A stretch of DNA of 23,476 bases from a virus. The stretch covers positions 1 through 23,476 of the IMG/VR virus record IMGVR_UViG_3300027825_000013; one strand, given 5' to 3'. Positions 2 to 21,775 of the stretch are shown in pieces. The position numbers and the translations under genes are program-made. The notes below the pieces were generated by a model. The model was not told where the DNA came from, made no database searches, and saw only the letters and a program-made list of their open reading frames with translations. Positions within the stretch are counted from its first letter, which is position 1; every line of letters begins with the position of its first letter.

Positions 2-1096
2 CTCTCGAAGATTTCCGTAGGCACGCCCGCGACCGGGCCGGTGGTGCGTTGGATGGAAGAATGGGGATATCCATCACAAGTTACCGCAACGCTTTCCGGA
101 AACATTCTCACCTTTTCGGGTCATCTGTTCGGCCGCCCCATAGACGCGGAATCCGTGAAGAAAGTGATCCGAGCGGGAACGATCCTGGAGCGGCCCTCCG
201 ACGGAGTCCAGGCAAAAGTTTCATCTGTTGACGGCTTGTCCGCGACGGTCGCGGCTTACGGCAACACCACCCTGAGTAATGACTCCGGAACAGTCGGTTG
301 GGACATTATTTCCGAAGTGTGGTCAGACTATCGTGACGCCACGGATCCTCGATCTCTGGACAGAATCTTACGCGAAGTGGGGACACAGATCCATGCGGAA
401 ACCTTTGAAATTCCCAAGACCCGCAAGAACACCAAGTATGAGATAGTGGCTGACGAAACCGAGCATCAGATTACCGCACTTCTGGAAAAGCTCCGGCGCC
501 AGCTCGCCTATGCGGTGCTTCGCTCCAGACCGTACTACGACGGGTCGGACTTCGTGTATGGGAACAAGACAGACGAGCCCACCATGTGCGGTCTTTGCAC
601 TTGGCCTGCAATCACCCAGAGCGAGCTTTCCAATCCCAACGTGTACGTTAACAAGAACTCGGTTGCTTTGACCAAAACGGACCTCGACAACCTGGCCAGA
701 CATCTCTGGCTGGACGAGCAGGCCGACTTCAACAAAGGCAACTGGCACATAGTCTGCCATCCTCTCACACACCAATACATTCACGACTTCGACATCTCGT
801 ACCGCAGAATGGAAAAGGAAGAGAAAGGAGTCGGCTTCTATGTGGACCACTTTGACTCCAAAATCGGGAAGAGCTTTCCTATACTTCCGGACCGTTACAT
901 GAGGCCCGACACGCTGATGATTGTGAACTTCGAGGCCACCAAATATGGGTACTTTGCCAACGATAGGCTCGATCGCAAAGAGATCCCCACTCAGGGACGA
1001 TACCAGCGCTGGTTGATCTCATTCCAGACTTACGGGGTCGTGGTCCGAGGCCCGAGGTCAAACATCGGCATGATCTATGGTCTGCCGACAGGCTGA
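2..1096 (+). CDS. Major capsid protein, SU10-like (5' end outside window)
   Basis: The reading frame is open from the window edge, so the gene is 5'-truncated here; the GTG at 41 is only an internal candidate because the in-frame residues before it (SVGTPATGPVVRW) already look like the conserved N-terminal part of the family. It resembles the SU10-like major capsid family (DUF5309): an early VxWMEEW segment, a DPRSLDRILREVGTQI segment followed by a long helix with a basic LRRQLAYAVL stretch, an MCGL segment, and a C-terminal stretch (YQRWLISFQTYGVVVRGPRS) where the family ends with a beta strand that places the chain in the shell. It would form the icosahedral head. Portal and scaffold or protease genes would be expected upstream, outside the window. 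Family assignment is from remembered patterns, not a search. Confidence 0.82.
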   Translation, partial: LSKISVGTPATGPVVRWMEEWGYPSQVTATLSGNILTFSGHLFGRPIDAESVKKVIRAGTILERPSDGVQAKVSSVDGLSATVAAYGNTTLSNDSGTVGWDIISEVWSDYRDATDPRSLDRILREVGTQIHAETFEIPKTRKNTKYEIVADETEHQITALLEKLRRQLAYAVLRSRPYYDGSDFVYGNKTDEPTMCGLCTWPAITQSELSNPNVYVNKNSVALTKTDLDNLARHLWLDEQADFNKGNWHIVCHPLTHQYIHDFDISYRRMEKEEKGVGFYVDHFDSKIGKSFPILPDRYMRPDTLMIVNFEATKYGYFANDRLDRKEIPTQGRYQRWLISFQTYGVVVRGPRSNIGMIYGLPTG

Positions 1097-2912: not shown

Positions 2913-3266
2913 ATGTCCCCAAACATGTCCGACCGCGAATTGCTCGAAGAGTTGAGGCTCGACGTGGCTGTCATCAAAGAGAAGCTCCCGCTCCTCGAAA
3001 AGATCAGCAACTGTTTGCACAATCTGAAAGACAACTGCAGGGTTCGCCATGAGGAACTGGAGCGGGCGCGCCATCGGAGGCACGAAAAGCATGAAATACG
3101 ATTTTCCGAACTGGAAACTGCGCAAAGAATGGCTCACACCTTTTACGAGGCTCGCGCCTCGTGGACGAGCAGGCACAGAGCCCTATTTTGGTCGTCAGTA
3201 GTCGCGGTCGCCACCTCAGCCCAAGTGTTGGCAACGGTTATCATACACTTCTTATCAAGACACTAA
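2913..3266 (+). CDS. Coiled-coil protein with C-terminal membrane anchor (XhlA-like architecture)
   Basis: 117 residues. Residues 5-85 are heptad-rich and highly charged (ELLEELRLDVAVIKEKL, then many His, Arg and Glu). Residues about 91-113 form one hydrophobic segment (LFWSSVVAVATSAQVLATVII) followed by a short basic tail, so the topology is a long coiled coil anchored by a C-terminal helix. This matches the general design of XhlA-type phage proteins that work with holins, and also of some spanin-like or tape-associated proteins. An AAGGCGG motif precedes ATG 2913; a second ATG at 2925 is possible. It ends the left structural block and is followed at once by a dispersed repeat. Confidence 0.65.
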   Translation: MSPNMSDRELLEELRLDVAVIKEKLPLLEKISNCLHNLKDNCRVRHEELERARHRRHEKHEIRFSELETAQRMAHTFYEARASWTSRHRALFWSSVVAVATSAQVLATVIIHFLSRH

Positions 3267-3267
3267 G

Positions 3268-3416
3268 TGCTCGGTTGTATAAGAGCGGTGATGTATTTCG
3301 GAAAGCTTTGGTGGGACAGGAGGATGCCTGTCCCACCAATACGGTGGTCTCGAATCCTCTTTCATGGTTTTCAGTCCAAGAATACGTCACCCGAATTAAG
3401 AATTGGACCTACTAAG
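3268..3416. repeat. Dispersed repeat, copy 1, with 13-bp hairpin
   Basis: About 150 bp clearly homologous to 17530-17711. The two copies share CTCGGTT, then ATTTCGG-AAGCTTTGGTGGGACAGG, then CCTGTCCCACCAATAC, then GTGGTCTCGAATCCTCTTTC and CACCCGAATTA, with matching spacing left of the hairpin. The core here is a perfect 13-bp inverted repeat, TTGGTGGGACAGG (3308-3320) and its complement (3327-3339), with a 6-base loop. It lies between the end of the coiled-coil gene and the end of the convergent radical SAM gene, so it may also work as a bidirectional transcription terminator. Confidence 0.85.
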
Positions 3417-3428
3417 TCCCGGTTCCTT

Positions 3429-4505
3429 TCAAGGCCCTCCGGTCCGATGCCCCTTGATCGCATGTGGATTGGCCTTGAGATAATTGCTCAAATGGGGCTG
3501 TTCGTGAACAACACCGCATCTTAGGCACGGATGTTGCGTATCAATGGGGAGGTTATCGGCTGATCTGGTGTCAAACAGGGATCTAGCAGTTGTAAACGCC
3601 TCGTTTTGACGAATTCTTGCGATGAGGTCTCCTGAATACTCTCCGAGGTCATCTTGCTTGAAGAACAGATAGCAGCAAGGCGCTATGCCGCCATCGGACT
3701 GCAAGACCACTGAGTGCCAGAGCTGATGGCAAAACTTCTCAGAAATGTGGTGTCCAGAATCCTCCTTACCCTGGACTCGCGCTTCGTCAGGACCTCCGCC
3801 ATGCACCCATCTGAACACATCTACACCGAGTTCTCTGGCCAACTTTCGCGCGGATTCCACTTCCTGCAAATTATGGCGAAATGCCAAGAACTTCCACTCA
3901 ATCACAGGAACCTTGACGTGTTGCCTTTTCTTATACGCAACGATGTGCCGTGTATTTTCCAACACCAATGCGAGCTTTCCCGTGCGGTGATATTGCTCGT
4001 ATGTCTCCTGCGAAGCCCCGCTAATGCTTACCGCCAGGTGATCGAGTCCGGCATCGCATAGTTCTTCCAAGACTTGCTTTCGGCCAACATTCAAATTGCT
4101 CGATATTGCTGTGAATATGCGGCGTCTATGAAACATGTTCACCATGGCTGCAATTTGAGGGTGGAGCAGAGGTTCACCCCAATTGAACAGATGGGCGCTA
4201 ATCAGGTATTGGCCGAGTTCGTCCACGAGCCGTTGAACTATCGACGGATCGATCAGGCTCTGCGTGCGGCCGCTATCGCGGCGAGCACCTGTTGGGCAAT
4301 AAGGGCATTGCAAGTTACATCGGCTGTTTACATCTACTACGGCCACCAACGGGAATGATTTGGGCCGAGCCACCCGCCGCAGTTTTTCCGCTTCGCACCG
4401 CAGTAAGTTGATGAGCTTGCGGAGCGTCAGATATGGCCGCACTCCCAGCCCAAGGCTGGTCATTCTCCTTATGGAGCCAAAACGATATGGAATGAGCTTT
4501 ATCAC
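3429..4505 (-). CDS. Radical SAM protein with SPASM-like C-terminal cysteines
   Basis: 358 residues on the minus strand, opposite to all neighbouring phage genes. The signature CNLQCPYC gives the three cysteines (63, 67, 70) that bind the [4Fe-4S] cluster reducing S-adenosylmethionine. NWGEPLLHP (about 108-116) is the GEP-type SAM-binding motif. The C-terminal part has Cys259, a CC pair at 277-278 after SDGGIAP, and CLRC at 327-330, as in SPASM/twitch auxiliary-cluster domains of enzymes that modify peptides or sugars. The start is taken as GTG 4505, because an in-frame stop lies upstream and AAGGAGA precedes it at a long spacing; ATG at residue 15 is possible but its site is too close. No peptide substrate gene is evident next to it. 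It looks like cargo rather than a virion gene. Confidence 0.88.
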   Translation of the reverse strand: MIKLIPYRFGSIRRMTSLGLGVRPYLTLRKLINLLRCEAEKLRRVARPKSFPLVAVVDVNSRCNLQCPYCPTGARRDSGRTQSLIDPSIVQRLVDELGQYLISAHLFNWGEPLLHPQIAAMVNMFHRRRIFTAISSNLNVGRKQVLEELCDAGLDHLAVSISGASQETYEQYHRTGKLALVLENTRHIVAYKKRQHVKVPVIEWKFLAFRHNLQEVESARKLARELGVDVFRWVHGGGPDEARVQGKEDSGHHISEKFCHQLWHSVVLQSDGGIAPCCYLFFKQDDLGEYSGDLIARIRQNEAFTTARSLFDTRSADNLPIDTQHPCLRCGVVHEQPHLSNYLKANPHAIKGHRTGGP

Positions 4506-4785
4506 TTCGAGAAGAACTCTCCTTTTACCACGAAATTATGAAGGCATTTGATCGAACCACACGTTGGGGTTCTTAATATCGCCCTTTGTCGTCACTCGCC
4601 GCTTCGCATGGCCACAACTCTTGTCAACGCACACGGACGGCCGTTTAGTGGGCTTCCCATCAAGCGCCTAGGAAAACAACAACTTATTTCATCATAGTAA
4701 ACAAGGATCTTTTTGGCAACAGAGCTTCGTCCGACCAGAATAGGAGCCCATTTCAGAGGGTTTCAAACCGATTGTAGGAGGTGTC

Positions 4786-5085
4786 ATGTCAAGAGAAATA
4801 AGACAGTGGCTTATTGCATCGACCATCGGGGGTCTGGGTGTAGTCGGTCTTCTCCTGGGAAGCCCGCTGGTCCTGCCGGATGATCCGACGGCTCTTTTAC
4901 GCTACGTCATAATTCGAGTCATCGCGGTCCTGATGGGGCTGATAGCTCTGAGCGGTGGGATGCTCTTCGTAGATTTCATAACCCCTGACGATTGGATGGA
5001 TGGAATTGGAAAAGACCACACGGCTTCAGCGATTCTCATGTCTGCTGTTGTGCTTGTTATTGGCGCAATACTTTGCTGGACCTGA
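4786..5085 (+). CDS. Small three-helix membrane protein, possible holin
   Basis: 99 residues with a very strong TAGGAGGTG site. Three hydrophobic segments are visible: about 9-29 (IASTIGGLGVVGLLLGSPLVL), 40-64 (YVIIRVIAVLMGLIALSGGML) and 79-98. A PDDWMDGIGKDH loop lies between helices 2 and 3. It is the first gene after the divergent radical SAM gene and overlaps the start of a secreted NlpC/P60 hydrolase by 86 bp, so a holin or other lysis-associated membrane role is likely. No family signature is recognised. The gene may mark the start of a transcription unit, since the 280 bases upstream contain no other gene. Confidence 0.75.
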   Translation: MSREIRQWLIASTIGGLGVVGLLLGSPLVLPDDPTALLRYVIIRVIAVLMGLIALSGGMLFVDFITPDDWMDGIGKDHTASAILMSAVVLVIGAILCWT

Positions 5086-5524
5086 TGCTTGGGCGCTTGG
5101 GCTGTCCTACAAAAGGTCCCTGAAACGACAGTTAACATTCATCATTGCCAAACACCCGAAATATACCTGGGGCGGTGCTGAAAGTCTGGATCAAGGGCTG
5201 GATTGCTCCGGCTATATATTTCTGGCGTGCAAGTGGGCGGGGATTCCAGGGATTACCCGCACGACGGCTTTGCACATGTCGCTGGGTTTGGGCGGCTGGC
5301 AGAGCAAAGACATTGATCTAGCCGATGCCGATGAATGTGACCTCTCCTTTTGGACCTTCAACGAGCAGAGACAAAACGGCCACGTAGGGGCGCTCTTGAG
5401 AGGTCTGGACGGCGAAATACAAGTAACGCACGCCAGCAACCGCCGAGGGGTCGTGCTCGACGACCTTGACGGGGTGCTCGTGCAAAAGCTCACAAAATTA
5501 CGAAGATTGACGATAGGAGACTGA
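5000..5524 (+). CDS. NlpC/P60-family cell-wall hydrolase with signal peptide
   Basis: 174 residues. Residues 1-32 look like a Sec signal or signal-anchor sequence: basic start, FSCLLLCLLLAQYFAG, and an AWA cleavage site. The mature part carries the NlpC/P60 papain-like fold: KYTWGG (54-59), the catalytic-cysteine motif LDCSGY (Cys69), GHVG with His128, and a third polar candidate at THAS (His144). The family cleaves peptide bonds in peptidoglycan stem peptides. The first 86 bases overlap the upstream membrane gene in another frame; the readable signal peptide inside the overlap argues that the long form is real. Two more lysis-type genes follow, so it is probably an exported endolysin. Confidence 0.8.
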   Translation: MELEKTTRLQRFSCLLLCLLLAQYFAGPDAWALGLSYKRSLKRQLTFIIAKHPKYTWGGAESLDQGLDCSGYIFLACKWAGIPGITRTTALHMSLGLGGWQSKDIDLADADECDLSFWTFNEQRQNGHVGALLRGLDGEIQVTHASNRRGVVLDDLDGVLVQKLTKLRRLTIGD

Positions 5525-5525
5525 A

Positions 5526-5723
5526 ATGGATGGAACAAAGGTTTGGTGGGCCTCAAAGACAATATGGATGAACCTCATTGCCCTGGTAGGATCGATCCTC
5601 ATCGCAATAGGCTTTGACCCGGGGCGTTGGGCTGAAATTTCTACAGTGTCGCTTGCTGTGGTGAATCTGATCCTGAGGCTTTACACGCGGGAGGCTATCA
5701 CCTTTGAAACGGACTCCAAGTGA
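5526..5723 (+). CDS. Small holin-like membrane protein
   Basis: 65 residues, starting one base after the NlpC/P60 stop and preceded by ATAGGAGA. It has two hydrophobic segments, about 15-30 (MNLIALVGSILIAIGF) and 39-53 (STVSLAVVNLILRLY), joined by a short charged turn, and a polar C-terminus (TREAITFETDSK). This size and shape, with the KxWWASKTIWMN opening, resemble small phage holins that form membrane lesions and release endolysin. Its place between two peptidoglycan hydrolases supports this. Confidence 0.78.
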   Translation: MDGTKVWWASKTIWMNLIALVGSILIAIGFDPGRWAEISTVSLAVVNLILRLYTREAITFETDSK

Positions 5724-5756
5724 ATTGGGAAGGATCAACTATAGGAAGGTGCCTTG

Positions 5757-6224
5757 ATGGCCTTACACAAAGGAAAACGGAAATTGCCCTCTCCAAAAAA
5801 CCACCAAGCGGTTCCAGTTGATGCAGCGCAGCAATCCGGCGCCGACTGGGCCAGTATCAAACACATTAAGCCCCGCGACTTCACGTGCAGATGTGAAGGG
5901 TTCTGCGGACATCCCGATGTGATTTCCGGGGAACTGGTCGTAAAACTCGACAAGATCCAAGATCTCATCGGCATGCCGGTCTCTGTGCTCTCTGGGACTC
6001 GATGCGAGAAATTCAATCGGAAATCCGGGGGCAGGGAGCGCTCGGCTCACACTGTCAAGAGCGGAGTCAGCCACGCCGCTGATATTCGCTGCCCGGACGC
6101 GGCCTTCAGATTCGCGTTTCTTACGGCCGCTCTCCCTCTCTTCAACCGGGTAGGCATAGGAAAGGAGTCCATTCATGTTGATGGTGACCCGGAATTGCCG
6201 CCGAACGTGGTCTGGCTTTGTTAA
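5757..6224 (+). CDS. M15-type D-Ala-D-Ala metallopeptidase-like endolysin
   Basis: 155 residues from ATG 5757; a TTG three bases earlier is too close to the AGGAAGG site. The order of motifs fits Peptidase_M15_3: KHIKPRDFTCRCEGFC near residues 36-50, VLSGTRCEKFNRKSGG (78-92), SAH (His98), AADI (Asp109), and SIHVDGD (His140, Asp142). The expected zinc ligands are His, Asp, His. These enzymes cut peptide cross-links in the cell wall. The distance from His98 to Asp109 is longer than the usual HxxGxAxD spacing, and His106 lies within that stretch, so which histidine binds zinc is uncertain. It has no signal peptide and would depend on a holin for export. Confidence 0.82.
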   Translation: MALHKGKRKLPSPKNHQAVPVDAAQQSGADWASIKHIKPRDFTCRCEGFCGHPDVISGELVVKLDKIQDLIGMPVSVLSGTRCEKFNRKSGGRERSAHTVKSGVSHAADIRCPDAAFRFAFLTAALPLFNRVGIGKESIHVDGDPELPPNVVWLC

Positions 6225-6238
6225 ACAAAGGGGTAAGC

Positions 6239-6913
6239 ATGGCTCTAATACCTGATGACACGCGGCTCTCGGATTGCGAGGGAAGAGTCGGGGCCATCAT
6301 CGACACCGCCCGGGACCTGTTCAACGAGACAGCCGGAGGTTTCATCACCGATGCATTCATCTTGCGCTCTATCAATAGATGCCAACAGGACATCGCTCAG
6401 GATGACTACTGGCGCCGTGAGACCTGGATCCCGAGCGTCTCCGGAGCCATTGAGATAGACCTTTTGACAGTGATACCGCAATATCAACACGTGCACCAGG
6501 TACAGTTCGTGGGCTGCCGGGACCCCATGACACCTCTGGGTAGTTTTCAGGAGTATCACGAGCTTAAAGTCGGTTCCAACGCGCCCGGAATACCGCAATA
6601 CTATGTAATGCAGAACAACACCTTGTTCGTCTGGCCCCCACCCGACAGAGACTTGGAATCCGGTTTTTGTATCTACCATTCCTATCTGCCTGACAATTTG
6701 ACCTGTTCGGCTATTAATCCGAACCCGCCTATATCGCAGGCACACGACATGGTCTTTGTCTACTTCGTGCTCAAGCAAGCCTTCCTGAGGGATCGGCATG
6801 CCCCTGGAGCAGACCTGAAGTTTCAGGAGTACTCTGCCTTGTACGATCGAGAAAAACAGAAGCTGCTTGCAGCAGGAGATCCGCCTGGGCTGGCTTTAAG
6901 ATCCTATAGGTGA
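6239..6913 (+). CDS. Head-tail adaptor protein, SU10-type
   Basis: 224 residues from ATG 6239, chosen because AAGGGG lies six bases before it; an upstream in-frame TTG at 6218 has no such site. The sequence has the layout of SU10-like adaptor proteins: an N-terminal helical part (GAIIDTARDLFNE, FITDAFILRSINRCQQDIA), then a beta insert (ETWIPSVSGAIEIDL, VHQVQFVG), then PQYYVMQNNTLFVWPPPDRD, where the family has a characteristic 'tLflwPpP' strand, and a C-terminal helix. It would connect the portal ring to the nozzle. The next large gene is nozzle-like, which supports the assignment. Confidence 0.75.
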   Translation: MALIPDDTRLSDCEGRVGAIIDTARDLFNETAGGFITDAFILRSINRCQQDIAQDDYWRRETWIPSVSGAIEIDLLTVIPQYQHVHQVQFVGCRDPMTPLGSFQEYHELKVGSNAPGIPQYYVMQNNTLFVWPPPDRDLESGFCIYHSYLPDNLTCSAINPNPPISQAHDMVFVYFVLKQAFLRDRHAPGADLKFQEYSALYDREKQKLLAAGDPPGLALRSYR

Positions 6914-6999: not shown

Positions 7000-7025
7000 T
7001 GTGTCAGGCCGCAGCGGGTTTCAAG

Positions 7026-7034
7026 AAAGGAGGG
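7026..7034 (+). promoter_or_regulatory. Ribosome binding site that fixes the TTG start of the nozzle gene
   Basis: AAAGGAGGG stands six bases before TTG 7040. The in-frame GTG at 7001 has no comparable site and lies at the edge of the palindromic element, so the TTG is the better start. Confidence 0.75.
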
Positions 7035-7039
7035 TCGTC

Positions 7040-10000
7040 TTGACTCAGGATTCGTACCGCACAATCAACCTCTTCAACTGGACTGGCGGGATTGTGGGCC
7101 GAAGACGCAATCCACTCCGCTTCACGGAGAGCGCTCTTGCAGCCGGTGAAAATGTAGACGTGGCAGACGGCGCCCTGCGCACGAGGCCCGGTACCTCTCT
7201 CATGTCATCCGGCAGTCTGCCCGCGGGTGACATCATGGCATTGGAGAATGTGCGCTTCCCCACGAACGAGAGCAGTTACCTTGTGGCGCAAGTCAAGTAT
7301 GAATTGAATTTCAGAGAAGGAGCGACCGGGCCATCTGCGAGGACTGATCATTCTGCTGTGTGGGATGCCGGAAATGGTCGAATGCTAGTCTTTGGCGGTG
7401 TAGACGAGGGGGGAAGTTACTTAAGCGATTTGTGGGCTTATCATCCTGACACAGATACGTGGGATGAACTGTCGCCAACAGGTGGACCTCCGCATGCCAG
7501 GCTAGGGCACACGGCAATTTACGTGCCAAGCCTAGAAATAATGGCTATTTTTGGTGGTAATTACTATTCTGGCGGCGCACATTATCTAAACGACGTTTGG
7601 GTTCTGGACTGTCAGACCGACACATGGACCGAGCAAGCTGCCACCGGGGATGCTCCCGATGCTTGCACACGACCAACCCAGCGACACGCTGCCTTATTGA
7701 GAACTGCCACGGGCGGAATGATGATCGTCCAGGGGGGAAGGACTACCTGTTACGAATTAGACCTTAATACTTGGGTATGGACCTCTTTCGATCCGACTAT
7801 CCCAAACTTCGGAATGGGGTTTCCTGTTCATGGTCGTTCAGGAGTGGCATACGATTCCTTAAACGATAGCATCATTATTTGTGGGGGACAGGATACGGGC
7901 GAAACTCTTACCAAGATGACCTTCTCGTTGGATATTGGTGCTCAGACATGGACTGTCAGGGCAAATTTGCCTGTTGAAGAATGGGCCGCAGACCTCGTAG
8001 CTGTCTATTGTTCCGGGAACGTACATGTCACCGGGGACATAAACAACACCGGCGGGGAGGTCGATCTTCAGGCTTTGACATACAATGTTGCGGGTGATTC
8101 TTGGTCTACGTTGGAGTTTAGAGGGACCGCCCGCCCCCATAACCGCACCGGCCACTCTATGAGCCTTACAGATACCGGCAGCATCATAATCTTTGGGGGT
8201 TCAGAGTACGATACCGGCTACTATAATGATGTCTGGCAAACGGCTGAAGTTTGTGCATCTTCAGCACCCTATGGCTACGGCCTCTTCGCTTGCCCCGATC
8301 ATCTCCCCACATCAACGGGGGTATTCACCCGCATCTATGAATTCGGCCCGACATGCGGGGTCTGCAAGTTTGCCACGCTGAATGACCGCGTGGTGATTAC
8401 CGAAGGCATCGCAGCGCCTCCGCTGGTGTGGGCTGGCGCTATGGCAGACGATGCCTCTGACTGGCCGCACCCAAAGGCCGTCTTGATCGCTCAGGATGGC
8501 GAGCGTTTCTACGATGTCTCGTCTGAAGTCTGCGATAAAGATCCTGATACGGTGGCGCAAGTCGGTGGTATCCGAACCTGGGGAGCGATCTATATCTGTA
8601 CTGACATGCCGGAAGTAGAGGGTTTTTACTTCGATATGGAGAGCCCGAATACCGGAGCGACAGGGACAACCGCGAGCACGTTTCACTCTCCCATGCAGAT
8701 CACGGAGGCCGACGATATGGCCCGCCAGGACCTCAAAGCCACGATAGTGAATTGGGTGCAAGATTCCGGGGCCGCTGGGCATTTCACAAATGCGGATGGG
8801 GATGCCATCACTGTCGGTCCCGGCAATGATCGGGGGGCTTGGGATAATGGAACAGCGTACGTCGTCGGGGACACGGTTACTCTGAACGGTATGGTCTACT
8901 GGTGTATCTTGAACCACGCGGGGCACACCCCGCCGAATCTGACATACTGGCGGATCAATAACCCTGACATCGTGCCGGGAATTGCAGTCGATCTTGGCGA
9001 CGGAGAATTCCTCATCGCGTCTGTGACGCATGGCGGCTACGGTGCGGCAGAGGTTACGCTTTCTGATATCCACGCGAACGCAACGGTCAATACAGCTTAC
9101 GGCCTGAGCATGGGGGCCGGGGGTCTCACGGTCAATTTGGGGTATCAGACTGGTGTGTCGTCATGGACAAAGAGCGTTTCCGGCTTTGTTCCACTGGCTG
9201 GATATTCCGTCCGGGTCGTTGTGCCAGGATCAGAGATTAGTACTGGGGGCGATCATGTTCAGTTGACTCTGAAGGCCAACACCGCAAGGCCGGCCTATAA
9301 AACGCAATATGCAGCATCCATCGGTAGTTTGCGAATAACGCATGTTTCCATTATGGAGCGCAGCGGCGGCACAGGTAACGGCACTACAGCCCCTACAGAA
9401 ATAACCTTCCCGGGCTTATACGGCACGCATGTAAGTGGTTGCACCTTCAGTAGTATAGGGGAAGAAAAGACTAGCGACATAATACCGTTCACTGTGGACG
9501 AGACCAAAGATTACCTCGTCACTCTAGATGTGGCCTGGAGTACGAGTTGGTATGTTCCGGCAGATGCAGGGGTTTTGGCTACTTGGCAAACCTTCAGAGC
9601 TGGTTATCTGCCGCAGGGCGCAGGCCAAAGTTACATCAAGGATTATGGCTGGGGAAATGGTGGTAGTTCCTGGGATCAACAGACTGCCGACGGATTTACC
9701 TTGGTTGACGCGGTCTACGGACTGGACAAACTGACTGTAACCGGAATTCAGGCAGTGAATCCCGGTGCGGAAGTGGCCACCACAACCGATGTAGTTCAGT
9801 TGACCACAAGCACTTTCGAGAGCGTTGACAGCATAACGGTTGAGCAATTTACCTCCGGATCTTCCGCAATCTACCACGCGGTCAGCTTCGATGCTCGGAA
9901 TACCTTTAATGTCTTCAAATCTTCAGTTTGGCGAATAATCGTCCGAAATAATAGTGGTACGTGGCAGTATATTGATGGATCGGACACCTGGCAGAATGCG

Positions 10001-12061
10001 TCGATTGATTCCCTCCTTGGATCGCTTCGTCAGGCACTCGCCATTGCTGAAAACCAGATGAAAAAGGCGGAACTGGAAGCCATTACTGCCGCTCAATGGC
10101 AAGCCAGCGGTGGATTCATCCCGCATATCACGACGACCGTGGACTTTGCAGTGGGGATGCAGGCTGATGGAACGAATGTCCCAGCACTTTCATCCTACGT
10201 TGTGGCCTATGAGTCTGGCGGCCAAGCGATCATTGAAGGATTCCAAAACGGTGCATGGACCGGAGGCGACGGTTGGACGGACAACACCATCGTCAACGGA
10301 TCAAGACTCGGGCAGTCCGGGTCGATCATGTACGCGGGGCCCTCTCCGTTCAAAACTGATTACCATGTTGTGGATCAGGTTCCTGGCTACTGGTTCCGGC
10401 TCTTGACCAATGGGACCTCTCCTGACTGTGCCATAACCCGGATTCATTACAAGGCCCCCTGCCAACCCCTGGCAAACATCGGAGACGGGCAACCGGACAC
10501 CGCACTCGGTTTTATTTACCAGGATGCGAGCATGAGCAGCATCCGGGATTTCACCGTTGAGGTTTCCGACAACGTGCTCACGGAGCTTTCCAAGGCTGAC
10601 ATTCCAATGCAGCCGGAAGACTTTCTTTTTGTCGGTTACCTCACCCGGTTTAACGAGATCGAGATCACCCCTTACACGGACAACAATCAGGAAGCATCTG
10701 TCCTCTCGGCTGAGTACTGGAACGGGGAAACATGGGCGCCTCTGGTCGCAACAGACGGCACTATCGGTTCCGCAGGGAACACCCTCGCGCAAAAAGGGAG
10801 GATCTCATGGACGCTTCCAACCGACTGGAAGACCAGTATCCCGTTCAATGCCTCCTTCAGCAGAGGCTATTGGATTCGACTCTCTGTGAGTGGCGCCCTT
10901 ACCTCTACTGCTGCGATATCGGAAGTGAGGATTTATGGTGTTCCGGATGCGCTGAAAAAACACAAGTTCGCAGCGACCTTCCAGAACCGGATTGTGCTTG
11001 GCAACCGGCCTGATGCCCAGGACCAGGTCGATATTTCCCGCGAGGATGAGGAATACGGCTTCACCGGTCAGGACAGTGCATCTTATCGTGTGGGCGGCAC
11101 GGATTCCATCCAATGCGCCATTTCCGCCTGGAACGGACTGCTCATCGGCAAGACTGAGACGTGGCATCAATTGAAAGCCTCCTCGTCCGGGGACTTCCAA
11201 TTCGAGAGTGTGGAGGCGGCCCGTCATGTTCCAATCAATTCTGAGTGCGTGGTCAAGGCGCCTGTGGGCGGTTTTGACTATGGAGATAGATATGGCCTAT
11301 TCTTCGTTAATCGTTACGGTGCTTTTGTCAGCACTGGTCTTCATGTTGATTCTCTTTGGAATACCTCCAGAGGCAAGACCATAAGTGATGTTCTCAACTG
11401 GTGGGATACCGCTAACACCCCCAGGCTTGATCTGGATTATTTGCATCTGGCCTGCGGTGAGTACTGGCCGGCACGGAATTGGATCGTCTGGTCCGTGCCG
11501 ATGATTTTGTCCTCGGAGTCAGGGCCGCAGGCATCCAATAACAGGCTCATCGTTTATGATCTGACGCTCGGGGCTTGGCTCCCGCCGTTCACAATCAGTG
11601 CCTCAAGCTTTTCCACTGCATACCACTACAATGCCAATGCTCCGGGGAAGCTCGGGGACTTGGGTTTGTATGCCGGAGATTATGAGGGGCGGATCATAAG
11701 GCTGTTCGGGCCTGGAGTTACCTCTGATTTGGGCTCCCCGATCTCAGCCTGGGTGGAGACTGGATGGCTGGATTTTGGATCGCCGGAATACAGAAAATTG
11801 CTGCGGGTGCTCTCTCTATACGGCAAGAGTGCGGACGACGTGATAACCGTGAGCGCTTTCGGCGATGGGGACACTTCTGCCGCAACAGTTGCGGAGTTTC
11901 ATGATCTATCTAATTTAGGGAGCAAGGCCTTTGCATTGGAACAGGAGTCTCACAATGTCCAGGGCCGTTTCTTCAAGTTTCGGATCGCATTTAATGATGC
12001 AAGTGAAGTCTACGGACTGCAGATAGCCAGCTCGCTTATACGCGAGTGGGGGGCTCTGTGA
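7040..12061 (+). CDS. Giant nozzle/tail protein with Kelch propeller and carbohydrate-binding-like modules
   Basis: About 1,673 residues from TTG 7040. The N-terminus (YRTINLFNWTGGI...RTRPGTS) and C-terminal third (ATFQNRIVLGN, VDISREDEEYGFTG, then SIQCAISAWNGLLIGKTE) resemble phage nozzle or DNA-stabilisation proteins that close the portal channel; the usual function is inferred. A Kelch-type region lies at about 7322-8240: repeated VFGG/IFGG/ICGG strands, each followed by NDVW or SDLW and a DTDTW-like turn, about six blades. At about 8831-8955, RGAWDNGTAYVVGD...YWCILNHAG...YWRI looks like a CBM5/12-type chitin-binding module. Two related beta-domains occur in tandem at about 10190-10470 and 10690-10950, each ending in YWFRL/YWIRL and an AI-x-x-I strand. 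Tail nozzle proteins are usually much shorter, so the extra modules are probable host-surface binding insertions. Confidence 0.72.
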   Translation: MTQDSYRTINLFNWTGGIVGRRRNPLRFTESALAAGENVDVADGALRTRPGTSLMSSGSLPAGDIMALENVRFPTNESSYLVAQVKYELNFREGATGPSARTDHSAVWDAGNGRMLVFGGVDEGGSYLSDLWAYHPDTDTWDELSPTGGPPHARLGHTAIYVPSLEIMAIFGGNYYSGGAHYLNDVWVLDCQTDTWTEQAATGDAPDACTRPTQRHAALLRTATGGMMIVQGGRTTCYELDLNTWVWTSFDPTIPNFGMGFPVHGRSGVAYDSLNDSIIICGGQDTGETLTKMTFSLDIGAQTWTVRANLPVEEWAADLVAVYCSGNVHVTGDINNTGGEVDLQALTYNVAGDSWSTLEFRGTARPHNRTGHSMSLTDTGSIIIFGGSEYDTGYYNDVWQTAEVCASSAPYGYGLFACPDHLPTSTGVFTRIYEFGPTCGVCKFATLNDRVVITEGIAAPPLVWAGAMADDASDWPHPKAVLIAQDGERFYDVSSEVCDKDPDTVAQVGGIRTWGAIYICTDMPEVEGFYFDMESPNTGATGTTASTFHSPMQITEADDMARQDLKATIVNWVQDSGAAGHFTNADGDAITVGPGNDRGAWDNGTAYVVGDTVTLNGMVYWCILNHAGHTPPNLTYWRINNPDIVPGIAVDLGDGEFLIASVTHGGYGAAEVTLSDIHANATVNTAYGLSMGAGGLTVNLGYQTGVSSWTKSVSGFVPLAGYSVRVVVPGSEISTGGDHVQLTLKANTARPAYKTQYAASIGSLRITHVSIMERSGGTGNGTTAPTEITFPGLYGTHVSGCTFSSIGEEKTSDIIPFTVDETKDYLVTLDVAWSTSWYVPADAGVLATWQTFRAGYLPQGAGQSYIKDYGWGNGGSSWDQQTADGFTLVDAVYGLDKLTVTGIQAVNPGAEVATTTDVVQLTTSTFESVDSITVEQFTSGSSAIYHAVSFDARNTFNVFKSSVWRIIVRNNSGTWQYIDGSDTWQNASIDSLLGSLRQALAIAENQMKKAELEAITAAQWQASGGFIPHITTTVDFAVGMQADGTNVPALSSYVVAYESGGQAIIEGFQNGAWTGGDGWTDNTIVNGSRLGQSGSIMYAGPSPFKTDYHVVDQVPGYWFRLLTNGTSPDCAITRIHYKAPCQPLANIGDGQPDTALGFIYQDASMSSIRDFTVEVSDNVLTELSKADIPMQPEDFLFVGYLTRFNEIEITPYTDNNQEASVLSAEYWNGETWAPLVATDGTIGSAGNTLAQKGRISWTLPTDWKTSIPFNASFSRGYWIRLSVSGALTSTAAISEVRIYGVPDALKKHKFAATFQNRIVLGNRPDAQDQVDISREDEEYGFTGQDSASYRVGGTDSIQCAISAWNGLLIGKTETWHQLKASSSGDFQFESVEAARHVPINSECVVKAPVGGFDYGDRYGLFFVNRYGAFVSTGLHVDSLWNTSRGKTISDVLNWWDTANTPRLDLDYLHLACGEYWPARNWIVWSVPMILSSESGPQASNNRLIVYDLTLGAWLPPFTISASSFSTAYHYNANAPGKLGDLGLYAGDYEGRIIRLFGPGVTSDLGSPISAWVETGWLDFGSPEYRKLLRVLSLYGKSADDVITVSAFGDGDTSAATVAEFHDLSNLGSKAFALEQESHNVQGRFFKFRIAFNDASEVYGLQIASSLIREWGAL

Positions 12062-14589: not shown

Positions 14590-14961
14590 ATGCAAACCCC
14601 AGGAGGACTGATAATTTTCGGCAGAACTTACGATGTCCGTGATGTGGACCCTATCCACGCAGGCGAAGGAATACTCGGGATGGCGGCTTATCGGGACGGT
14701 GTGATCTATCTTGACCGGAACATGGACCCGTCCCTGACTCTCAGCACCCTCTGGCACGAAGCCTTCCACATAGCTCAACAGGAAATGCTCGGAACCGCGG
14801 ATGAGGCCCAGGCTCGGTGGGTGTCGCTCTTCGTTCACACCTTCCTTCTGCAAAATCCTGGCATCCTGGAATGTTACCTCGCCGAAGCGAATCCGGCCTC
14901 ATTTCACGATGAAGAGTCTCAGCAGGGTCCCCGAGCACAAAGCAATTCAAACCGTGCGTGA
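14590..14961 (+). CDS. Small HExxH zinc-metalloprotease-like protein (ImmA/IrrE-like)
   Basis: 123 residues. The motif TLWHEAFHIAQQE (His56, Glu57, His60) is the HExxH zinc-binding helix, and DEAQARWVS at 71-79 offers an acidic third ligand in a second helix, as in gluzincin-type ImmA/IrrE and related phage proteins. The preceding strand GVIYLD and the C-terminal FLLQNPGI also fit. ImmA-like proteases cleave phage repressors, but no helix-turn-helix repressor gene is adjacent, and many small phage HExxH proteins have no known substrate. The tail (QQGPRAQSNSNRA) is unstructured. Start chosen by the GGAGG site. Confidence 0.72.
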   Translation: MQTPGGLIIFGRTYDVRDVDPIHAGEGILGMAAYRDGVIYLDRNMDPSLTLSTLWHEAFHIAQQEMLGTADEAQARWVSLFVHTFLLQNPGILECYLAEANPASFHDEESQQGPRAQSNSNRA

Positions 14962-14973
14962 AAGGGGAAAATT

Positions 14974-15048
14974 TTGATAGAAACAGAAAAACAACGACGA
15001 TGGTGGTTTGCCACTCACCCAGAATTCAGCTCGGGTAGGATGTGGTGA
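14974..15048 (+). pseudogene. Truncated copy A of the WWFATHPEF leader ORF
   Basis: TTG-started frame of 24 codons after an AAGGGGAAAA site. It reads IETEKQRRWWFATHPEFSSG and then runs into a stop inside the palindromic element that starts at 15035. It is the same leader as at 21551: over 57 bases the two differ at eight sites, all third positions and all synonymous. The element's insertion, or recombination at that point, appears to have removed the rest of the gene. Confidence 0.75.
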
Positions 15049-15138
15049 GCGAAGCGAACCGCATCGCTCGCCAAAAAACGACCGCGTAACGCGAACGATG
15101 CGATTCCCCCTCGTCTCGCGGCGTCACCACATCGCTAC
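15035..15138. repeat. 104-bp palindromic (MITE/REP-like) element
   Basis: It begins GTAGGATGTGGTGA and ends TCACCACATCGCTAC, imperfect terminal inverted repeats. Inner segments CGCATCG and CGATGCG are also inverted. It resembles the widespread GTAGGGTGCG..-type palindromic repeats of bacterial genomes. Its left arm supplies the stop of the truncated leader ORF, and its right arm contains the stop codon (15135-15137) of the convergent DUF4139 gene. Confidence 0.75.
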
Positions 15139-17273
15139 GCGGACTCGTCTTTGTAATCCCGCACCTTCTTGGCCAGGGATTCTTCCATCTGGCGAAGTTT
15201 GCTCCCGGCATCGTCGAGCTTCGCACGGCGGTCCGCCAATTGTTCTTCATTAGCCGCCAACGCCGCAACCCACTTTGCCCGCAACTCCTGTTCCTTTGGC
15301 TGGCTTGACCCCAGCGTTTGGAGATTGGAGCGCAGCCGGCCCTGTTCCTCGGTCAGCCGTTGCACCTGTTGGGTCCATTCGGTGATCTGCCGCTGCAAGC
15401 CGGCCTTCTGCGCCATTAGGTCACTCAACTCCTTCATAATGGCCTTAGCGCCCGCGGACAAATAGGGCTGGGCGAAATAGAAGCGGATCTGCTCCTCACT
15501 ACTCTTATCCAAATGTACCGTTTCTCGCACGTCGCGCTTCTCCTCAACCACGAAGTCCACTGTCTCGCCGGCCTTCAGCGGCACCTCGAATCGGTAATGG
15601 TTGTCCACCTCCTTAAGAGGCTTCTCAGGCTTGCTGAGGCGGTAACCGGGATTTCTCGGCTGGTGCAGCCACAAGGTCGCCGCCTCTCTACCGCGGTTTG
15701 CGATCTTCCATGTGTTGGTGAGGGTCTCCACAGCGGTTAGGGTGAGTATGCCGTCAACAAGGCGGCCCTTAAAATGTGGTGCCCGAAGGCTTTTTTCCCG
15801 CGGGGTAACATCCACAGAGGCATCTAGCGCGTAGGGGATTACTTCCTGGCTGCCGGGCGGGAGTGTGTGATTGAGAATGCCCTCACCGAGCGACGTGCTC
15901 CCCTCGAAGAAGGTTACCGCGCCCGCCTCCAGCGTCAGGTCGGTAGCATTTTGCACCACGAAAGCATTTGTAGTTCTGGGAGCGAAAGACGCCTTGTAGT
16001 ACAGGAGCCGCCGCCCGCTGATCTGTTTCGAGATGATGGGGACCATGGCCGCCTGGCCGCGGGAGATTGAAACTTTCTCCTTGGGTTCGTAGCTGAAGAG
16101 GTCCCCGACTTTCGCACCCTGAGCCCCACTGTCGTAGCTGCCGGCGAGGAGCTCGCCCAAGGGTTTGGCCTCTTTCTTCTCGGCATCCCGTCCACCAGCC
16201 ACCGGCGGAGGAGGCGCGGCGGCAACCTGCTGGTCCATCATTTGGCGCGGGGCCGCGGGTGCAATGGTCATGCGTTTGCTGCCGGCGCGGAGTTTTTCCT
16301 CCATTGGCGCAGCCATGGCTGCCGGCACGTCCTTTGCAAGATCGGGTGATGACACTGCCGCCCAATCCACGGCCAGGTCGGACAATCCAGGAATCGGCAC
16401 CTGCGCTCGCTTGATGTAGTAGGGAGAGTACAAATCCATCACGTAGGAGATCGGATTACCGGCTACGAAAGAGATCGTCACGTCCTTCCAGTCGTCTTCC
16501 GTGTTGTTCTCGGCCAATGCCCAGCCCTGGAGGAGCGGAGAGGCGTCCTTCTTCTTTTCATCGAATATGACACGGTAGGAACACTTCCAGATGGGCATTT
16601 CGATTAGATAACCAATGCGCAGCTCTCGCTCGCCCTGTCCCGTGGCGCTCAACGTGAGCTTCTTCCGGTTGGTGTACTTGCTGTCAAGGGAGAGGTCGAG
16701 GAGTCGGCGAAGGTCGCGCTGGAGCGCCTCATCGGCCAGCGAGAACTCGGATATGGCGAAGAGATCCAGGGAGCGGATCGGACCGGCCTCGGTCATCAGC
16801 ACCAGACGATAACTCTTCTTTAGCGCCTGGTTGTTAACGACTTCAGTGATCGGCTCGACACCAAGGATGCGCCCTTCGACTGTTTCACCGGCCGCTTTGG
16901 CGGTCAGCCGAGCCCCCTTGAGTTGCATCAGAAACTGGCTGAGCGCTGCTTCCTCAGGCACCTTGATGAGGATATCTTGGAGCTGCTTTGAGAGCGGATC
17001 GCGGGTTTCGTACCGGACGGACGAGATCCTGCCGCCACCAAGGTCCACGGCGAAGAAGCTGGTCAGGAGGTCTTTCATCTGCTCGGCACGGAATTCGAGT
17101 GAGAGCGTTGCATTGCCTTTGATCTTCCCTTCTCGCTCGAGATAACCCATGCCATGCTTGTAGAGGACCACCTTTGTCACGAGTGGTGGCTCGGCCGCGG
17201 CGAGCACAACGTCTCCAACTGTCAACGACGCCCAAAGAGAAAACAACAACAGCACCAGAGTGGTCCTTTTCAC
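15135..17273 (-). CDS. Secreted DUF4139-domain protein with C-terminal coiled coil
   Basis: 712 residues from GTG 17273, chosen because AAGGGGG (17280-17286) stands six bases before it; a TTG at 17300 would add nine residues without a good site. The N-terminus KRTTLVLLLFSLWASLTVG...LAAA is a signal peptide, so the protein is exported. Residues about 30-180 contain the repeated-strand region that precedes DUF4139 (VVLYKHGMGYLEREG). DUF4139 itself is seen in LRIGYLIEMPIWKCSYRVIF and LAENNTEDDWKDVTISFVAGNP. A Pro/Ala/Met-rich linker (about 325-375) and a second beta region follow. The last 90 residues form a coiled coil (LQRQITEWTQQVQRLTEEQ). The family's molecular role is unknown. It is not a typical phage gene and sits on the opposite strand between phage modules, so it is probably cargo. 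Confidence 0.85.
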   Translation of the reverse strand: MKRTTLVLLLFSLWASLTVGDVVLAAAEPPLVTKVVLYKHGMGYLEREGKIKGNATLSLEFRAEQMKDLLTSFFAVDLGGGRISSVRYETRDPLSKQLQDILIKVPEEAALSQFLMQLKGARLTAKAAGETVEGRILGVEPITEVVNNQALKKSYRLVLMTEAGPIRSLDLFAISEFSLADEALQRDLRRLLDLSLDSKYTNRKKLTLSATGQGERELRIGYLIEMPIWKCSYRVIFDEKKKDASPLLQGWALAENNTEDDWKDVTISFVAGNPISYVMDLYSPYYIKRAQVPIPGLSDLAVDWAAVSSPDLAKDVPAAMAAPMEEKLRAGSKRMTIAPAAPRQMMDQQVAAAPPPPVAGGRDAEKKEAKPLGELLAGSYDSGAQGAKVGDLFSYEPKEKVSISRGQAAMVPIISKQISGRRLLYYKASFAPRTTNAFVVQNATDLTLEAGAVTFFEGSTSLGEGILNHTLPPGSQEVIPYALDASVDVTPREKSLRAPHFKGRLVDGILTLTAVETLTNTWKIANRGREAATLWLHQPRNPGYRLSKPEKPLKEVDNHYRFEVPLKAGETVDFVVEEKRDVRETVHLDKSSEEQIRFYFAQPYLSAGAKAIMKELSDLMAQKAGLQRQITEWTQQVQRLTEEQGRLRSNLQTLGSSQPKEQELRAKWVAALAANEEQLADRRAKLDDAGSKLRQMEESLAKKVRDYKDESA

Positions 17274-17290
17274 ATTAATCCCCCTTGTTC

Positions 17291-17425
17291 TTAGCCGCAA
17301 TTATGCGGCGCGCTTGATATCTTGGAGGTCTTCTGGGTCTTGATCACTCGCTCGACGGCCCTTTCGATCTCAAAATGACGCCGCATTGTCACCCAGGAGT
17401 CTCCGAGGAGTTCAACTGCCACCAT
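17291..17425 (-). CDS. Doubtful small ORF upstream of the DUF4139 gene
   Basis: 44 codons from ATG 17425, ending 17 bases before the DUF4139 start. The peptide (VAVELLGDSWVTMRRHFEIE, then RAVERVIKTQKTSK) looks protein-like and helical, but there is no ribosome binding site. It may be the remnant of a longer gene or chance. Its TAA stop lies in a small GCCGCA...TGCGGC dyad region. Confidence 0.2.
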   Translation of the reverse strand: MVAVELLGDSWVTMRRHFEIERAVERVIKTQKTSKISSAPHNCG

Positions 17426-17921
17426 CTAGCTTGAAAACGGGGTTTTCACACGTTTCTGATCATATCAAACCACACAGATCCCTGAAGACCTATCATGATC
17501 GAACCTTTGAATTCAAGTGGGATCGCTTAGCACTCGGTTTCCCAAATTCGGTGGCGGATTTCGGGAAGCTTTGGTGGGACAGGCATCTTGCCTGTCTATA
17601 AAGAAATGACAGGCAAGATGCCTGTCCCACCAATACCGTGGTCTCGAATCCTCTTTCATCGTCTCTATTCCAAGAACACGTCACCCGAATTACGGATTGA
17701 ACCACTTAGTAGTGATTGCGGTTTGGTATTGCATAAATATCTACCATGGCTCGAGGAAATGGCGCATCACCCTGGGGTGCCACCGACCTGAGCTTTGGCA
17801 GGTCCGTGCTGTAGCTTCAATACATAGCCAAAACCTCCAATCGATTCTCAACTCAGATATTCATTACCATAGGCCGAGTCTGTTGGCCGATCTCCGTAAA
17901 ATCCTGGAATTGAGCTGACAA
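17426..17921. other. Non-coding gap before the terminase genes, holding repeat copy 2
   Basis: No convincing gene in about 500 bases. It contains the second copy of the dispersed repeat (17530-17711). The 200 bases after the repeat carry no clear promoter, and only a weak ribosome site (GGAAT/GAG) precedes the ATG at 17922. Confidence 0.55.
17530..17711. repeat. Dispersed repeat, copy 2, with 26-bp perfect hairpin
   Basis: Homologous to 3268-3416. The core here is longer: arms of 26 bp (17571-17596 and 17608-17633) are exactly complementary around the 11-base loop TATAAAGAAAT. Within each arm the unit GACAGGCA.. is itself repeated. Compared with copy 1, an internal CATCTTGCCTGTC...GACAGGCAAGATG segment is added; the flanks on both sides still align. 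Confidence 0.88.
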
Positions 17922-18332
17922 ATGACCCTGAAGAAAAAACGACCGACAGAAGAGTCCTCGGCAGCTTCTTTTGAAGAGGCAACCAAACCAGCCACGGACA
18001 CTGAGACGCAGTTCGATCCCTCTTTCCTCCTCCAAATAAGGGGACTGGCCGCGGCCGGCCTGACCCCTTCCTCTGCGCTGGCACTACTTACCCAGCTCAT
18101 CGCTGAAACTCCCGAGGCATCCAAAGACACAATGGACCGGATAAAGATGGTGGATAAGCTTCTCAACACCGCCCGTGCCATGATGGAAACTCGGCTAAAA
18201 AATGAGGAAGCCGCAGCCATCGCCGCGAGGCTTGATGAAATGGAGCTTCTCATCGAAAAGCTTTCAATTCAAAAGATAGGCGAGCCCAATCAGTGCCATG
18301 AAATTAGAGATAATCGAAGCGACGATGACTGA
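17922..18332 (+). CDS. Possible small terminase subunit
   Basis: 136 residues. The first 30 residues are polar and Lys/Glu/Thr-rich; the rest is helical: FLLQIRGLAAAGLTPSSALALLTQLI could be a small DNA-binding helical domain, and a long coiled-coil region follows (MDRIKMVDKLLNTARAMMETRLKNEEAAAIAARLDEMELLIEKL given here only in outline at about 69-115). The gene directly precedes the large terminase and overlaps its start, the usual place of the small subunit that recognises phage DNA. No family signature is certain. The ribosome binding site is weak. Confidence 0.6.
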   Translation: MTLKKKRPTEESSAASFEEATKPATDTETQFDPSFLLQIRGLAAAGLTPSSALALLTQLIAETPEASKDTMDRIKMVDKLLNTARAMMETRLKNEEAAAIAARLDEMELLIEKLSIQKIGEPNQCHEIRDNRSDDD

Positions 18333-20049
18333 GCCCCCGGCCAATGAGCAGATTAATCTTCGACGGTCGAGGCTCCGCCTGGAAAGACTGTCGGAACGAC
18401 TGCAACAGGTCGTCCCCGCGCCCGAAGACAACCTGTTTCATATTCAGCGATTCATCGAAGACCTGAAGATCATCAACAAGCGCGGGGAATTGGTCTCCCT
18501 CATCATGAACCGCGCCCAGGAGACGGTATTCCACAGGCTCATGGAATGCCGTGAAAAGAGGGTCCCAGCACGTTTCATCTGCTGCAAGTCCCGACAGCTC
18601 GGTATCTCCACGCTCATCGAAGCCTTTATCTTTGCTCTCATCACACACTATCCCAACCGTTTCGCACTAGTGGCGGCCAATTCCGTCGAGAGCGCTCAGA
18701 CTATCTTTGCAATGGCGCAGCGCTTCCGCCGCTATCTTGAGTCCGGCCGGACCGCCAGGCCCGTCACGGTCAATGCACGTCGCATCGAATATCTAGCGCC
18801 TCATCATTCACGTTTGCAGATCGACACGGCTGCAAACAGGAGCCTGGGCCGAGGCGGCACCCTTCACTATGTCCACGCCAGCGAGGTGGCTTTCTGGGAA
18901 AGGGCTGAAGACCCGATTCTTGCCATAAACCAGTCTGTTCCGCAGCACTGGGACACTCTGGTCTTCTGGGAATCCACCGCGAACGGCATGCATAATCTTT
19001 TTCACAGAACGTGGATAGCCGCGGAACGTGGGGAATCAGATATGGAGCCCATATTTCTATCTTGGAAGGGATTTCCTGAATACAGCTTGCCCGTCGGGCA
19101 ACGGGAGAGGCTGCAACTCTCCCAGGATGAGGAGGCGTATGCCCGGAAACACGATTTGAGTAGAGACCAGATCAAGTGGGCCTGTTACACGAGGAAAAAC
19201 CAGTGCCATGATTCCTGGGACAAATTTCATCAGGAATACCCCGTGGCCGCACAACTGGCCTTCACCTTTACAGGGATGCCTTGGTTCAGCCAGGATGTGA
19301 TTCATGAATCCCTCGAGAGGCTGGTCCGGCCTCCTCTTACACGGGGTTATCTCGAGTTCTCTGCCGGTGATTCTGCTGTGCCTCTGTTCGTAACCGATCC
19401 GACAGGGCCTCTGGAAGTATGGTTGCTTCCCGAGCCGGCGCATACATATAGTCTTGGAATGGACGTAGGGGAAGGCGTCGCCGCGGATTACACGGTTATT
19501 CAGGTGATATGCAACGAGACAGGGGAGGTGGCGGCCCGTTATCGTTCCCACCGCGTCCGGGCCGAAACCGCCGGAGTAGACTCGTACCTTCTCGGCGTCT
19601 ACTACAATTTCGGGCTGCTAGGGATTGAGCGAAATGGCCCTGGGCTGGCCGCGCTCGCGGCGTGTGAGCGGGGGCTGTCGGGCTATCCCCAGATGACAGG
19701 CTATCCCAACCTGTACTATCACACGTACACAGACCGCAAGATCCCCGAAGAGACCAGACGGCTGGGCTGGATCACTAATAAAGCCACCAAGGAGGCTATG
19801 CTGAGCAGGCTTGCGCTGACTTTCGAGAGCCGCGGGCTCAAAATATACAGCAGAACAACTCTTCTCGAGATGCAAGGCTTTGTCTGGGACGCGGAAAAGA
19901 AAAGTTTCCGCCAGAATTACAAATCTCCGGACTCGAGACTGGCCCACGACGACGAGATCATAGCCCTTGCCATAGCCAACGAGATGCGCACCCACACGTG
20001 GGAAAACCGCTTCATTCAAGGACGGCTGCCTCGTGGAGGGGAGTTTTAA
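18298..20049 (+). CDS. terL: Terminase large subunit (TerL)
   Basis: 583 residues from ATG 18298; ATG 18325 (ATGACTGA, overlapping the upstream stop) is an equally good translationally coupled start, giving 574. The N-terminal ATPase has a Walker A-like loop CKSRQLGIST (96-105), a Walker B strand ending in HASE (Glu196) and the coupling motif WESTANG (224-230). The C-terminal RNase H-like nuclease has its first Asp in LGMDVGEG (Asp389), Glu443 in GIERNGPG and the Asp pair in AHDDEI (551-552). The enzyme pumps DNA into the capsid and cuts it. All key residues appear present, so it should be active. Neither a portal nor a capsid gene follows it, which is unusual. Confidence 0.92.
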   Translation: MKLEIIEATMTEPPANEQINLRRSRLRLERLSERLQQVVPAPEDNLFHIQRFIEDLKIINKRGELVSLIMNRAQETVFHRLMECREKRVPARFICCKSRQLGISTLIEAFIFALITHYPNRFALVAANSVESAQTIFAMAQRFRRYLESGRTARPVTVNARRIEYLAPHHSRLQIDTAANRSLGRGGTLHYVHASEVAFWERAEDPILAINQSVPQHWDTLVFWESTANGMHNLFHRTWIAAERGESDMEPIFLSWKGFPEYSLPVGQRERLQLSQDEEAYARKHDLSRDQIKWACYTRKNQCHDSWDKFHQEYPVAAQLAFTFTGMPWFSQDVIHESLERLVRPPLTRGYLEFSAGDSAVPLFVTDPTGPLEVWLLPEPAHTYSLGMDVGEGVAADYTVIQVICNETGEVAARYRSHRVRAETAGVDSYLLGVYYNFGLLGIERNGPGLAALAACERGLSGYPQMTGYPNLYYHTYTDRKIPEETRRLGWITNKATKEAMLSRLALTFESRGLKIYSRTTLLEMQGFVWDAEKKSFRQNYKSPDSRLAHDDEIIALAIANEMRTHTWENRFIQGRLPRGGEF

Positions 20050-21263: not shown

Positions 21264-21550
21264 CTCGGCTCCCCCATTCTTACCTCCTTGAAGGCCAATT
21301 GGTACGCATTAGTCTGTTGCCACTATTTCCCTCCAGTAAACACCTTTGAGATTTGATCATCAAATCTGAACGCGAAATGAAGGCACTCTAGCTCAACGGC
21401 TTGGATGCCATGGGCCGAGCCGCGAGGCTTTCATTGGAGAATGCCGCTCTGACTGATCCCGGACTGTCAGTGCTGTTGGCCTGGAGCCAGGGAGCCGTAC
21501 ATGCGCTTTGATACGGCAGCTTCGCTTTCGCAGTAAGAAAGGAGGAAAGT
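21264..21550. other. Gap between acidic ORF and leader copy B
   Basis: No clear gene. A 33-codon frame at 21410-21511 (with AALTDPGLSVLLAWSQGAVH) looks protein-like but has no ribosome site, and it is in the same frame as the leader ORF downstream, ending at TGA 21509-21511. It may be the remnant of a longer gene. A second C-run at 21269-21280 could pair with the G-run in the preceding hairpin. Confidence 0.45.
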
Positions 21551-21775
21551 TTGATAGAAACCGAAAAACAACGGCGATGGTGGTTCGCCACGCATCCTGA
21601 GTTCAGTGGGAGCCGGACAGGACAAAGGGGCGACCTTCCGGACAGAATCGGACGGTTGCCGCGAGAAAATCCGGCCAAGGAAGCATTCATACGCGAGATG
21701 GCTAAGGCGGGATGGAGCAGAGCGAAGGCGGAAGAACGATGGAACGTGTACAGATTAAACGAAAACATCGCCTAG
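21551..21775 (+). CDS. Leader ORF copy B (WWFATHPEF family), in frame with the downstream toxin
   Basis: 74 residues from TTG 21551, five bases after GGAGG. The first 18 residues (IETEKQRRWWFATHPEFS) are repeated at 14974 and, decayed, near 23021. A polar, Arg/Gly-rich stretch follows (SRTGQRGDLPDRIGRLPREN), then a helix (AKEAFIREMAKAGWSRAKAEE). It ends at TAG 21773-21775. The frame continues unbroken after the stop through GVATAMAVHGAGG into the toxin ORF, so leader and toxin may be one protein of 236 residues with a nonsense codon, or the toxin may be made by readthrough. Function of the leader is unknown; it could be a trafficking or recombination module. Confidence 0.68.
   Translation: MIETEKQRRWWFATHPEFSGSRTGQRGDLPDRIGRLPRENPAKEAFIREMAKAGWSRAKAEERWNVYRLNENIA

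Follow-up and report, generated by a model that had tools for sequence, protein, structure and literature searches.

How did a Kelch propeller come to lie within a putative nozzle protein of a phage tail, and what might it do there? The question is raised by one stretch of viral DNA, IMG/VR virus record IMGVR_UViG_3300027825_000013, a linear and incomplete contig of 23.5 kb (23,476 nt), whose whole length is called the window here. A Kelch virion protein, CBB_552, has been reported, and Kelch was called unusual in phage (PMC5259590); what Kelch propellers do in phages has yet to be elucidated (PMC7760394).

Kelch repeats and the protein that carries them

When the whole 1686-aa protein was searched against Pfam, PF24681 matched at E 3.4e-42. 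PF24681, PF24981, Kelch_1 (PF01344), Kelch_3 (PF13415), Kelch_4 (PF13418) and Kelch_6 all scored above the Pfam gathering score within residues ~110-402, and six blade-type GG/GD motifs were found in the translation, at residues 128, 181, 241, 291, ~345 (VTGD) and 395. These results confirmed that the Kelch repeats in ORF 7001-12061 are real, above curated thresholds. An earlier note on this DNA had put about six Kelch-like blades at 7322-8240, and both number and coordinates were good; the true insert, seen against the relative L005, is slightly wider (7298-8281). The ORF list starts the gene at GTG 7001, but TTG 7040, the start used in the relative L002, is the likelier one.

The AF2 alignments were too shallow, giving a mean pLDDT of 36 for window residues 14-552 (55-81 over blades 1-3) and a pLDDT of 41 for the L005 homologue, which was left out of the fold search. 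With the low-pLDDT window model, Foldseek retrieved the solved Kelch domains of LZTR1, KLHDC2 and KLHDC10 from the PDB (E ~1e-10, TM ~0.3-0.5), so the structure prediction that had been proposed as a check also pointed to Kelch. In BFVD, the same low-confidence model matched Kelch proteins of jumbo phages, poxvirus and giant viruses.

An enzyme role had been suggested as well, and was not supported. That the Kelch is a virion-associated enzyme acting on surface glycans, of the sialic-acid mutarotase or galactose-oxidase type, is very unlikely. It resembles the NanM/YjhT mutarotase models (E ~1e-9) and Pfam NANM weakly, but the NCBIfam NanM/YjhT models gave 37 bits against cut-offs of 256.35 and 416, Pfam NANM gave 42 against a cut-off of 45, and the L002 Kelch went down to 15-18 bits. 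Similarity at this level is expected of any Kelch. NanM/YjhT identity was rejected, as the window Kelch lies far below the family cut-offs.

The claim that the Kelch is embedded in a tail protein agrees with the adjoining SU10-type adaptor gene; SU10_adaptor lies upstream of the nozzle-like gene in three contigs (window, L002 and L005). The nozzle-like ends that had been claimed for this protein stood in part. Synteny and colinear profile similarity support them, but the similarity is weak (hhalign against SU10-type nozzles, p 0.018 for the N-terminus and 0.031 for the C-terminus), and no Pfam or PHROG nozzle or gp10 (P22-type) family matched the 1686-aa protein. The product of ORF 7001-12061 is probably a nozzle-type protein, as suggested mainly by synteny with the SU10-type adaptor together with the weak profile similarity. 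The SU10 nozzle is hexameric; it has a platform and a propeller of seven blades, of which blades 1-3 lie well away from the channel (PMC9509320). If the SU10 analogy holds, the Kelch would face outward on the tail; the tail-tip location proposed earlier is likewise a prediction.

Table 1. Positions of the nozzle-like gene, its segments and marker genes in the window
Feature	Position	Strand	Evidence and remarks
SU10-type major capsid protein (MCP)	2..1096	+	PF17236 E 2e-33; 5' end cut by contig start
SU10-type adaptor, syntenic partner of nozzle-like gene	6239..6913	+	PF24175 E 4e-18
Nozzle-like tail protein, 1686 aa	7001..12061	+	ORF; directly 3' of SU10_adaptor gene; homologues in L002, L005, remotely L010, L011, L013
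Scaffold segment 1, platform-like N-terminus and first propeller strand	7040..7297	+	44% aa to L005 res 11-104; 95.6% nt to L002
Inserted segment with Kelch propeller, res ~100-427	7298..8281	+	replaces L005 105-111; Pfam Kelch; GC3 z -5.4
Six-bladed Kelch propeller proper, res ~108-417	7322..8251	+	Pfam, blade motifs, AF2 model, Foldseek
Scaffold segment 2 (FATLNDRVVITEG... propeller strands)	8282..8650	+	43% aa to L005 112-238; 82% nt to L002
Second insert, 523 aa, res 551-1073	8651..10219	+	3 residues in L005; divergent in L002; CBM_5_12 at res 613-640
Scaffold segment 3, C-terminal half	10220..12058	+	46% aa to L005 242-847; 88.8% nt to L002
Large terminase	18298..20049	+	phrog_2 E 1e-19

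Several other genes of the neighbourhood were observed. An NlpC/P60 gene and an M15 peptidase gene (5000-5524 and 5754-6224), which may act in lysis or entry, lie between the capsid and adaptor genes; in L005 this interval holds a glycosyltransferase and an NAD-dependent epimerase. Cell-type cargo genes are on the opposite strand at 3429-4505 (-) and 15135-17300 (-), encoding a radical SAM/SPASM protein and a DUF4139-like protein. Two pairs of long imperfect direct repeats (76-89%), 3263-3409 / 17526-17703 and 14960-15029 / 21537-21606, are located in or near intergenic regions, and the former adjoins these two cargo genes; the repeats are possibly sites of cargo insertion. ORF 21791-22261 weakly resembles the nuclease toxin domain Tox-REase-5 (E 6e-4, short of the cut-off), and ORF 22273-22953, which comes next, lies in a low-GC stretch and has no family match.

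Insertion site and divergence of the inserts

L005 (MCP 84.7% and adaptor 64% identical to the window; the L002 adaptor is 88% identical) encodes an 847-aa homologue of the nozzle-like protein without Kelch. Its blastp match to the window protein consists of three colinear pieces, 11-104/15-99 (44%), 112-238/428-550 (43%) and 242-847/1074-1686 (46%). These pieces were used for the three-protein comparison, as a MAFFT global alignment of the full proteins misplaced the middle. At the insert edges, window residue 99 aligns with L005 residue 104 and window residue 428 with L005 residue 112, so that 328 window residues stand in place of a 7-residue hairpin loop. By N-terminal alignment, the much more distant homologues in L010, L011 and L013 (22-24% identity) also have only a short loop at this site, where an SYL(F/V)AQ-type strand is joined to the one that follows.

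Relatives without the region, which the earlier note had asked for, therefore exist. Its proposal of a later acquisition gained support from the absence of Kelch in L005 and the three remote homologues, and from low GC3 (below). A gain in the window/L002 lineage would be the simpler reading of the direction of change. The close sample consists of one phage with a different Kelch (L002) and one without Kelch (L005). When a Kelch donor was sought in genome contigs, the single match was remote (26%, Neomarinimicrobiota). The nozzle scaffold had no match in the genome contigs, and the L005 nozzle-like protein had none in the phage collection.

The match between the window and L002, a separate metagenome record, extends over 8.2 kb. 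In 150-bp bins, DNA identity in the flanks was mostly 0.87-0.97 (0.69-0.79 in a few bins) versus 0.41-0.57 in the Kelch; it was 0.84-0.85 between the inserts, 0.56-0.77 in the second insert and 0.76-0.97, mostly >0.8, beyond it. At the protein level, identity to L002 was 97.6% for the N-terminal scaffold, 34% for the Kelch (45% in DNA), 88% for the middle scaffold, 59% for the second insert and 92% for the C-terminal scaffold. At the left Kelch edge, identity drops from near complete to background within 7289-7298 (~3 codons); the right edge is more gradual. The dS of the Kelch was saturated, and that of the three scaffold segments was 0.16, 0.77 and 0.45. With 34% aa identity at E 1e-32, the window Kelch and the L002 Kelch are nonetheless homologous, and closer to each other than to phiPA3 gp360 or the Neomarinimicrobiota genome match. 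The second insert follows the same absent-or-divergent pattern in a milder form. The main point beyond the earlier note is how strongly the cassette differs between phages that are otherwise almost the same.

Every sequence compared, the window and its L-numbered relatives alike, is a metagenomic contig, which leaves room for a chimaera made in assembly, with a Kelch gene of cellular origin fused to a phage gene. We find this scarcely credible, since the window and L002, as separate records, have an uninterrupted ORF with Kelch at the same junctions.

The note had also called the Kelch stretch less GC-rich than its flanks. Raw GC of the Kelch was 51.5% versus 54-59% in the scaffold, a dip that is unremarkable (16th percentile of same-length windows) and too weak as evidence of acquisition; synonymous-corrected GC3 was used instead, and by this measure the claim stood. 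For the window Kelch, GC3 was 0.46 where 0.61 was expected (z -5.4); for its L002 counterpart it was 0.38, again with 0.61 expected (z -8.8). Controls from nine further coding stretches gave |z| <= 2.8, the top being the 430-aa ORF 1587-2879 at z -2.8.

Cassette replacement would fit the divergence and GC3 data more closely than point mutation in place, because a sharp left edge and saturated dS beside a conserved scaffold are combined with deviant GC3. The alternative is an old Kelch that diverged fast in place under host-driven selection, without cassette exchange, and was lost from L005. The window and L002 Kelch segments are indeed mutual best matches among those compared, with the same starting register. 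But the boundary on the left is abrupt, the saturated synonymous sites lie beside a scaffold of dS 0.16, and the GC3 shifts differ in size between the two phages. This alternative is disfavoured, and in our view improbable, because point mutation would not alter silent sites so locally.

A putative recognition module

We consider it fairly probable that the Kelch and the second insert make up a recognition module, acquired and open to exchange, on the nozzle of an SU10-like podovirus, with cassettes that swap by recombination. On this reading, a nozzle-type protein carries the Kelch, which was inserted at the tip of the scaffold's first beta-hairpin, and the phage is short-tailed, uncultured and SU10-like. 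By analogy to the SU10 hexamer, about six Kelch domains would be carried on the tail exterior, where they may bind a host-surface ligand, either glycan or protein. The CBM-containing second insert (CBM5/12 match at E 6e-7 when this insert was searched alone) may enlarge the recognition surface. The cassettes would change as units, through recombination with divergent alleles and selection, and the scaffold would be kept conserved by the need to fit the adaptor and the channel. The fold of the nozzle, its hexameric state, the outward position of the Kelch, its role in recognition and the recombination route are all predictions of this kind.

The putative function of the Kelch is best explained as recognition of a ligand on the host surface, because both inserts hold binding domains or are similar to them, because they are the parts that change fast, and because L010 has a lectin domain. 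In the L010 remote homologue (7615-10788), this ConA-like domain occupies residues 233-388 (Laminin_G_3, E 8e-13), outside the region aligned to L005.

In the main rival reading, the Kelch serves to dock another phage protein, such as a short fibre, and varies with its partner. Protein binding is common among Kelch domains, and in SU10 the short tail fibre attaches to a loop at the margin of blade 1 of the propeller (PMC9509320). However, a fibre gene was not recognised within the window, and the SU10 docking site is a small loop, rich in Trp, that comes from close to the C-terminus (Trp839-857; PMC9509320), and not a domain inserted near the N-terminus. Docking therefore appears unlikely, though less so than an enzyme or divergence in place.

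Going beyond an exchangeable recognition module, the nozzle might serve a podovirus lineage that lacks short fibres as its primary receptor-binding protein, with the first hairpin as a universal socket for exchangeable propeller or lectin cassettes. We put this forward only tentatively. If it is true, host range would shift by a domain swap in the DNA-exit protein itself.

Comparison with known systems

The protein resembles gp17 of SU10 (Kuravirus) in having an SU10-type adaptor ahead of its gene (directly in the window, a few genes apart in SU10), in an N-terminal motif, and in domains inserted into a propeller scaffold, which in SU10 are four Ig-like domains between propeller blades 2 and 3 (PMC9509320). 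In contrast, the two proteins have no significant sequence similarity, and SU10 lacks Kelch and binds separate short fibres.

The Kelch proteins of jumbo phages (phiPA3 gp360, CBB_552, PS119XW; PMC5259590) share the Kelch propeller and are partly virion-associated. Among 50,697 phage records, phiPA3 and PS119XW gave the only cultured-phage sequence matches to the Kelch (26-30% identity). Those proteins belong to large phages, however, and in the phiPA3 region examined Kelch is a separate 619-aa gene, without insertion in a nozzle-adaptor cluster. No Kelch within a nozzle-type protein was found in a limited literature search or in the 50,697 phage records. Precedents may exist, because the BFVD matches also include Kelch-like proteins of uncultured phages, among them one of 1479 aa. 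Kelch virion proteins are thus known already, and Kelch inside a nozzle-type protein is new as far as these limited searches show.

Mtd-type diversity-generating retroelements (DGRs; L008/L009) also vary a recognition protein, and do so in the same phage lineage (MCP of L009 56% identical to the window), but through adenine-directed mutagenesis. The L009 DGR (3951-5066, 4927-5049, 5110-5232, 5363-6337) consists of an Mtd-domain protein, variable and template repeats and a reverse transcriptase, and 25/27 mismatches between the repeats are at template adenines. In the window, an incomplete contig, no direct repeat was found in the nozzle-like gene, and no RT motif or template repeat.

Modular receptor-binding proteins, with their swapping of fibre and spike domains, likewise combine a conserved scaffold with an exchangeable divergent domain. 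Here, by contrast, the carrier appears to be a nozzle and not a fibre, and the module is an internally inserted Kelch propeller, which points to Kelch propellers as recognition modules. With the module present, absent or different on nearly the same scaffold, these phages offer a natural comparison of how short-tailed phages may gain and exchange recognition domains.
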